DNA from: an uncultured bacterium
Lineage (GTDB): Bacteria > Cyanobacteriota > Vampirovibrionia > Gastranaerophilales > Gastranaerophilaceae
NCBI GenBank assembly: GCA_949286705.1
Contig: CASEDF010000003.1
Coordinates: 62,474-126,473, forward strand
Reading direction: 5' to 3'
DNA length: 64,000 bases
A program made the translations under genes and the position numbers. Positions 38,269 through 44,697 of the stretch are shown here, piece after piece. Positions within the stretch are counted from its first letter, which is position 1, and each line of letters starts with the position of its first letter. A model generated the notes under the pieces. It was not told the origin of the DNA. It saw only the letters and a program-made list of their open reading frames with translations, and did not search any database.

Positions 38269-38300
38269 CATACTTTTTTCTTTGTAAAGAAAAAAGTATG
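38269..38300. repeat. perfect 15-bp inverted repeat
   Basis: CATACTTTTTTCTTT (38269-38283), GT, exact reverse complement (38286-38300). It abuts the duplicated tRNA-Leu 3' end. Confidence 0.9.
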
Positions 38301-38476
38301 GGCATGAAGAGACTCTCTTATGGCGCTCGCGTTAAACGTGTCTTCGGTTTTTGCTTCTAAGAACTGCGTTCTTTTCGCAAAAGACCTCCGCACTCTGCTC
38401 GCGCCTCGCTCGAACTCTGACAAGGCAAAGCCTTGTGGAGTTCTCGTCTCTTAGCTTTCCGATTTCTTAGAAAAAA
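38298..38476. mobile_element. insert between tRNA-Leu and a duplicate of its 3' end
   Basis: ATGGGCATGAAGAGACTC (38476-38493, tRNA 3' end on the minus strand) recurs exactly at 38298-38315. Between are hairpins such as CAAGGC-AAA-GCCTTG and runs of CTCGC/GCGAG. No gene is supported in 38201-38476. Confidence 0.6.
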
Positions 38477-38555
38477 TGGGCATGAAGAGACTCGAACTCC
38501 CACGCGTTAGCACTAGTTCCTAAGACTAGCGTGTCTACCATTCCACCACATGCCC
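38477..38555 (-). tRNA. tRNA-Leu (TAG)
   Basis: 79 nt. GGGCATG/CATGCCC acceptor, D-arm GTGGAATGGTAGACAC, anticodon loop CTTAGGA (TAG), short variable arm, T-loop TTCGAGT, discriminator A. The variable arm is short for a leucine tRNA. Confidence 0.93.
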
Positions 38556-39025
38556 ATATTTTGTTTTCAATTGCCTTCGGCAAGGCGTGTCTACCACCTC
38601 TCACAAAACGATACTCAATCGTTTTGTTCGGCAGAGTACCACATGCCCGTATTTTGTTTTCAATAGCCTTCGGCAAGGCGTGTCTACCACCTCTCGCAAA
38701 ATGATACTCAATCATTTTGCTCGGCAGAGTACCACATGCCCGTATTTTGTTGTCAATTGCCTTTGGCAAGGCGTGTCTACCACCTCTCGCAAAATGATAC
38801 TCAATCATTTTGCTCGGCACAGTACCACATGCCCGTATTTTGTTGTCAATTGCCTTCGGCAAGGCGTGTCTACCACCTCTCGCAAAATGATACTCAATCA
38901 TTTTGCTCGGCAGAGTACCACATGCCCGTATTTTGTTGTCAATTGCCTTCGGCAAGGCGTGTCTACCACCTCTCGCAAAACGATACTTAATCGTTTTGTT
39001 CGGCACAGTACCACATGCCCGTATT
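38556..39025 (-). repeat. five 93-bp repeats of tRNA-Leu 5' half with inserted hairpin
   Basis: Read on the minus strand, each unit has a leader hairpin (TTGCC-GAA-GGCAA), GGGCATGTGGT (tRNA nt 1-11), a hairpin insert starting ACTCTGCCGA, then TGGTAGACACGC (end of the D-arm). The 10-bp stems lie at 38603-38627, 38696-38720, 38789-38813, 38882-38906 and 38975-38999; the stems differ but keep pairing. It ends next to the intact tRNA. 93 bp is 31 codons, so both strands stay open by chance; no protein is supported. The rest of 39026-39310 holds only AT-rich DNA. Confidence 0.88.
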
Positions 39026-39310
39026 CAATTATCAACAGACAGTAAAACCGCCTTTAATTAATCTATATTAACAGACGATTAATGTCAAGTCTTTTGTCTC
39101 GGGCTTTATATAGCAGCTTCCTCAGATATTATAAAACGTCATTCTGAGGGCTTCAGCCCGAAAAATCTCATTTGTCAGATTCTCCGTATACTCTCTGTAT
39201 GTCACGGTTTTTAGTTTTCTATCGAATTTGCTATAGAAGTACCTTTGTTCTTGCCCGATGTGTTTTTTTATGCAATAATCTAATCATGCAAAATTTTACT
39301 GAGGATGGTT

Positions 39311-44322: not shown

Positions 44323-44576
44323 TTGAAAACCGAATAGGTTGACGAACAACCAATATGTTACAGTTTTTTTGTAAAACTTTTTTACAAAAATCTGATAGGC
44401 ACACCAACAACCAATATGTTGTCGTGCCTCAGGCACCGGGATGTGGCACTCTGCCGAACAAACGATTAAGTATCGTTTGTGAGAGGTTGGTAGCGCACCC
44501 CATAACATTGAAAACCGAATAGGTTGACCAACAACCAATATGTTACAGTTTTTTTGTAAAACTTTTTTTACAAAAA
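44323..44576. repeat. direct repeats leading into tRNA-Pro
   Basis: About 67 bp at 44323 (TTGAAAACCGAATAGG) recurs at 44508, offset 185. ACAACCAATATGTTGT-type palindromes occur four times (44290-44535). No protein is supported in 44169-44583; the minus-strand frame 44254-44661 is a shadow of these repeats. Confidence 0.85.
44437..44499 (+). repeat. tRNA-Pro 5'-half copy with inserted hairpin
   Basis: CGGGATGTGGC (tRNA nt 1-11), insert ACTCTGCCGA (44448) with a perfect 9-bp stem 44458-44466/44472-44480 and loop TAAGT, then TTGGTAGCGCACC. The same insert, at the same D-arm position, is in the tRNA-Leu array at 38556-39025. Confidence 0.9.
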
Positions 44577-44583
44577 AAGTTTT

Positions 44584-44657
44584 CGGGATGTGGCGCAGCT
44601 TGGTAGCGCACCTCGCTTGGGACGAGGGGGTCGCACGTTCAAATCGTGTCATCCCGA
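44584..44657 (+). tRNA. tRNA-Pro (TGG)
   Basis: 74 nt. CGGGATG/CATCCCG acceptor, D-arm GCGCAGCTTGGTAGCGC, anticodon loop CTTGGGA (TGG), T-loop TTCAAAT, discriminator A, with CCA encoded at 44658-44660. C1-G72 is typical of bacterial proline tRNA. Confidence 0.96.
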
Positions 44658-44697
44658 CCATTTTAAAAAAGAGCCGAAAAAAAAGAGGATTAGGGAA

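Follow-up and report, generated by a model that had tools for sequence, protein, structure and literature searches.

In a 64,000-nt stretch of a Gastranaerophilaceae contig (the window), the five tandem units beside the gene for tRNA-Leu(TAG) each carry a folded hairpin, and this hairpin is a new family within the short dispersed palindromic repeats. It fits that broad class in being non-coding, hairpin-forming and present in many intergenic copies in related genomes, and it fails the tests for Rickettsia palindromic elements (RPE), repetitive extragenic palindromes (REP) with RAYT, integron attC sites, IS110 and clustered regularly interspaced short palindromic repeats (CRISPR). With modest confidence, we favour reading the conserved 42-nt hairpin as a dispersed, non-coding element confined to one lineage. 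In this view it inserts into hairpin-forming DNA at GNAR sites and is multiplied afterwards, either in tandem or within composite repeats.

A covarying hairpin in the array at tRNA-Leu(TAG)

Tandem Repeats Finder delimited a repeat at 38545–39025 (period 93, 5.2 copies, 95% matches), and ARAGORN and Rfam placed the intact parent gene, tRNA-Leu(TAG), at 38476–38556 on the minus strand. The five 93-bp units (38557–39025, minus strand) lie upstream of this gene; they are real, and their positions in the first-pass annotation were right. Read on the minus strand, each unit consists of a leader, tRNA nt 1–11, an extra A, the hairpin (40 nt), the D-loop sequence TGGTAGACACGC and a small hairpin, GCCTTGCCGAAGGC, with the tRNA-Leu part after the main hairpin running from the D-loop to about nt 27. 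The hairpin had been described as splitting the 5' half of the tRNA. It does lie within a tRNA copy, but instead of merely splitting it, it replaces four tRNA-Leu bases, GGT[GGAA]TGG.

All five hairpins are on the minus strand. Copy 1, nearest the tRNA (38597–38636), has the stem ACAAAACGAT; copies 2 (38690–38729), 3 (38783–38822) and 4 (38876–38915) share the stem GCAAAATGAT; and copy 5, the outermost (38969–39008), has one A.C stem mismatch on the tRNA strand. The foot is CTGT in copies 3 and 5. Two stem pairs differ on both sides between units, and the three stem versions match the earlier description. The variant pair reported for the last unit exists as well, but it is G-U only on the plus strand, which had been used for that label.

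Selection on the folded form, which had been proposed from these two pairs, is well supported. The hairpin has a constant foot (ACTCTGCCGA...GAGAGG), a loop that is usually TTRAGTA and a covarying stem. In an alignment of 122 copies, of which 81 are distinct, pairing held in 96.5% of stem cells, and double-sided changes occurred at 9 of the 10 stem pairs, with 117 double-changed cells compared with 24 in shuffles (0/500); the alignment was fitted to the covariance model, so these counts lean toward structure, and an unfitted set of 12 copies agrees. The unpaired parts are also conserved (bulge GCCGA in 105/109, 3' foot GAGAGG in 112/117 and loop TTRAGTA in 97/109), although these proportions are somewhat inflated because the copies were partly found by patterns containing the same parts. 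A few copies keep the foot under a different hairpin, making the foot the most constant part, and tandem G.A pairs occur in the stem of one lineage.

Tandem slippage together with template-switch correction in a quasi-palindrome could mimic such compensation without selection. The units are nearly identical within the array, and quasi-palindromes can gain double-sided stem changes in one step. However, template correction cannot account for an unpaired foot and loop that stay the same from genus to genus, as is seen for GCCGA, and it leaves unexplained why copies at one target motif occur in contexts unrelated to each other. This explanation is disfavoured and, in our judgement, highly improbable.

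Distribution across genomes

Genomes were searched using a covariance model of the hairpin (R1). The source genome gave 20 matches, and a DNA search of this genome also located the hairpin outside the array, including in a partial copy of tRNA-Pro. That second locus of the window (44449–44486, plus strand) is a 5' copy of tRNA-Pro arranged as CGGGATGTGGC-A-hairpin-TTGGTAGCGCACC, and its intact parent, tRNA-Pro(TGG), lies at 44584–44660 on the plus strand. Matches were obtained in 38 of 59 relatives, with up to 47 per genome, and among 194 genomes of the class, 92 carried the hairpin. A single one of these 92 lies outside the source's own family of Candidatus Gastranaerophilales, in another family of the order. 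To date the hairpin is known only from these gut bacteria, the Gastranaerophilales. The covariance search that the first-pass annotation had proposed therefore recovered covarying copies in relatives, and hairpins beside tRNA genes were found in related genomes as well.

The copies fall into 71 context clusters. A pattern scan was also performed on 84,980 species; among the matches listed, many contigs were labelled Gastranaerophilales or Melainabacteria, and the others were labelled 'uncultured bacterium' only, or Heliobacteriaceae/Clostridia. None of the viral contigs scanned for the core pattern carries it.

Host sites and target motif

Most often the hairpin lies in truncated copies of tRNA gene ends, which derive from many tRNAs; its other hosts are a 5S gene copy, REP-like repeats and C-rich palindromes. 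The copies are intergenic, with 7 of 110 falling in mechanical open reading frames (ORFs) compared with 70% of random positions. At tRNA loci, the truncated gene-end copy that holds the hairpin lies outside the intact gene, and the 3' side of the hairpin faces that gene. A tRNA lies within 700 bp of 153 copies, of which 114 were upstream on the same strand, 33 were antisense past the 3' end and faced the gene, and 6 pointed away; the hairpin is directed toward the intact tRNA in 147 cases. The 5' flank matched the neighbouring tRNA in 109 of 136 distinct cases, and the value for other tRNAs was 3.1%.

The junction with the tRNA is mostly at nt 11–12 for same-strand copies and 11–14 nt from the 3' end for antisense copies, and 4–6 tRNA nt are lost at nearly all resolvable junctions. 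The native sequence at the junction is S^GNARY, with G in 45/46, A at +2 in 46/46, R in 41/46 and Y in 44/46; these 46 sites are distinct yet not independent because tRNAs share ancestry and A14/R15 is constant among them. The same motif also holds at tRNA nt 18–20, at nt 26 and, antisense, in the T-arm. In non-tRNA hosts, GNAR-type junctions were seen by eye in a REP (GAGC^GAAGC), the 5S copy (ATGG^GAAC), a C-rich palindrome (AAG^GGAGG) and another repeat (CAC^GGAG). Pairing between the two flanks of one copy exceeds their pairing with the flanks of other copies (0/2000 permutations); the hairpin thus lies within palindromes and frequently forms the second arm of P1-hairpin-P3-P1'.

In the first-pass annotation, the units were suggested to act as tRNA decoys or to give rise to tRNA-derived small RNAs. 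Every unit does retain tRNA nt 1–11 together with D-loop bases and is probably part of a transcript. However, the window units lack the anticodon, the T-arm and the 3' acceptor strand, and a tRNA-specific role is too narrow because the hairpin also occurs in non-tRNA hosts (REP-like repeats, C-rich palindromes and the 5S copy) and antisense at tRNA 3' ends. We consider this explanation very unlikely.

Two other features were observed at these sites. A conserved leader box, TTGAMAAYTNAATA, seen by eye ahead of the units, yielded no rule, as 1 of 34 own-genome tRNAs fits the strict pattern. On the other side of tRNA-Leu, at 38300–38417, a copy of the tRNA-Leu 3' end (GGGCATGAAGAGACTC) holds another hairpin-rich sequence of 96 bp, which is placed exactly at GACTC^GAACTC, also a G-N-A site, with all target bases kept; it has one weak relative elsewhere in the genome.

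Locus history, composite repeats and a possible pre-tRNA leader

At the tRNA-Leu(TAG) locus, species across the genus carry 5, 3, 2, 2, 1, 1 or 0 units, and two species have remnants. Three sister species are without any unit at this locus, and empty sites were seen. Units resemble one another more within an array than between species. As sister species with 0 to 5 units share one tRNA locus, gain and loss are directly traceable.

Composite repeats containing the hairpin do amplify. About 20 composite copies in genome G102 combine a C-rich palindrome with the hairpin and differ in their outer flanks, and genome G152 has a REP-like composite family carrying the hairpin. In genome G012 (locus L057, 1–300), a tandem array consists of 5S rRNA pieces and a terminator, and one partial 5S copy has an antisense hairpin. 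As a separate observation, three tandem hairpin units with the flanks ACGCGTGGAGA-hairpin-GGAGAACCCCCGTCGGGAG are present at L367 in G152. A modular dispersed repeat of roughly 300 nt, starting with TGTCTGAG and ending with GTCAGTTGACWATATGAA, bears the hairpin at one or two tips; it was observed at L163, L164, L211, L224, L225, L230, L234 and L238 and has no Rfam match.

A promoter-like site, TTGACA-17-TAGATT (39060–39088, minus strand), is located just beyond the outermost unit, so the five-unit array is probably within the leader of pre-tRNA-Leu. The sister species G012 has a comparable TTGACA/TATAGAT site upstream of its empty tRNA-Leu locus. The strongest rival explanation is that the units are functional pre-tRNA leader RNAs, in which a protein or RNase binds a structured hairpin, possibly of kink-turn type, and tunes how the Leu, Pro, Met, Val and Ile tRNAs are processed or expressed. 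The position of the array between the promoter-like site and tRNA-Leu is consistent with this, and a leader RNA explains both the constraint (constant loop and foot, covarying stems) and the vertical inheritance at each locus. G-U stem pairs also exceed A-C pairs on the tRNA strand (18 vs 8). The foot, GCCGA opposite GA, may resemble a kink-turn, which has tandem sheared G.A pairs beside a 3-nt bulge and is bound by an L7Ae-type protein; the likeness is a loose one, with a bulge of 3 or 4 nt. On the other hand, about a fifth of the tRNA-linked copies are antisense at tRNA 3' ends, past the terminator in the example examined, many copies lie in REP-like or C-rich palindromes with no tRNA near, and tRNA-Leu(TAG) lacks any unit in the three sister species. 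We regard the leader explanation as rather unlikely; a local function of the hairpin is possible.

If the hairpin is a dispersed element, as we favour, it would have inserted at a GNAR site in the duplicated end of a tRNA (or 5S) gene, and the folded single strand may be what is recognised. Unequal recombination or replication template switching could then have multiplied the unit, and the hairpin within REP-like palindromes would move as part of the composite repeat. Partial tRNA copies survive because the intact gene is still beside them.

Search for a mobilising enzyme

Several results weigh against the favoured reading. Hairpins at the same locus in different genomes had a mean edit distance of 3.8; for hairpins at different loci it was 6.0 within one genome and 5.9 between genomes. 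Hairpins across the genus cluster by tRNA locus rather than by genome. This grouping indicates that inheritance is mainly vertical, and recent hopping of the hairpin alone was not seen. No target-site duplication was seen at the hairpin sites. None of the candidate enzymes (Y1/RAYT, IS110, integron integrase and reverse transcriptase) follows hairpin copy number; in genome G035, which has 42 copies, Y1 transposase, RVT_1 and IS110 are all missing and no integron integrase scores above the cut-off.

Across the 59 genomes, the integron integrase model TIGR02249 scored above the cut-off in none, which rejects attC. The DEDD transposase expected for an IS110/IS1111-type remnant was found in 5 genomes, with the hairpin-rich ones not among them, and the presence of reverse transcriptase does not track hairpin number. 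A longer autonomous element sharing the 5' end was also rejected, as 359 of 388 ACTCTGCCG sites are the hairpin itself and the rest are remnants, nested insertions or chance. A by-eye look at unannotated clusters for a protein family common to loci of different context suggested no mobility enzyme.

Movement of a REP/BIME-type repeat (BIME, bacterial interspersed mosaic element) by RAYT or another Y1 transposase of the IS200/IS605 type was considered on the basis of the imperfect hairpin, the conserved foot and the intergenic, dispersed copies. The source genome has one Y1_Tnp gene, and GNAR may be similar to the GTAG/GGAG feet of REPs. However, Y1_Tnp was found in 21 of 59 genomes and is missing from the hairpin-rich G035, G024, G028 and G029. 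The hairpin is near only 2 of 21 RAYT loci, one of which is a RAYT inserted into a hairpin array, and the RAYTs examined have their own, different flanking hairpins. This explanation is very unlikely. In two species, at L344 (1–960, G011) and L328 (G010), a hairpin unit beside tRNA-Phe is interrupted by a RAYT gene that carries GTTGGGCA hairpins of its own.

The first-pass annotation had also offered a DNA hairpin used by a transposase. A hairpin serving a mobility enzyme fits the data better than a decoy does, but no such enzyme was found. A stronger form of the element reading is that the hairpin serves a new type of mobile element in bacteria as its recognition part. The folded strand would replace sequence at GNARY sites within hairpin-forming DNA, chiefly at the ends of stable-RNA genes, and would cause the neighbouring gene end to be duplicated. 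We consider this form rather unlikely.

Comparison with known systems

The hairpin is a very small repeat with strong structure; its target motif is clear, its orientation toward stable-RNA genes is fixed, and most sampled genomes of one large gut-bacterial family contain it. Should it prove mobile, it would rank with the shortest known insertion elements; should it prove functional, it would be an unrecognised structured leader of bacterial tRNAs. At the gathering score, Rfam returned only tRNA genes, with no credible family for the units or the flanking repeats, and the titles and abstracts listed in searches of open-access literature on palindromic elements, tRNA repeats and Gastranaerophilales contained no description of the hairpin. 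A CRISPR array would need differing spacers, and the unit remainders here are nearly identical.

RPEs are short palindromes dispersed among related genomes, and we know of no enzyme assigned to them. The hairpin is likewise short, palindromic and dispersed in related genomes. However, an RPE would be expected in frame inside protein genes, whereas the hairpin shuns ORFs, is found preferentially in truncated ends of tRNAs, targets GNARY and occurs in tandem arrays. It shares with REP/BIME repeats and their RAYTs the folded hairpin, conserved foot, intergenic location, high copy number and composites, but several hairpin-rich genomes are without RAYT, and the local RAYTs have other flanking hairpins.

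In rRNA intervening sequences, which lie within functional 23S rRNA genes and are cut out, a stem-loop takes the place of a hairpin tip already present in the stable RNA gene, and the present hairpin also stands in place of a hairpin tip in stable RNA gene sequence. It differs in that its host is a partial copy beside an intact gene, its length is only 42 nt and antisense orientation is possible. Yeast mitochondrial GC clusters and other organelle mobile hairpins are 30–50 bp long with conserved ends and are sometimes nested. The hairpin differs from the GC clusters in its bacterial chromosomal location, sequence and target, and it resembles these organelle hairpins in size, conserved ends and nesting.
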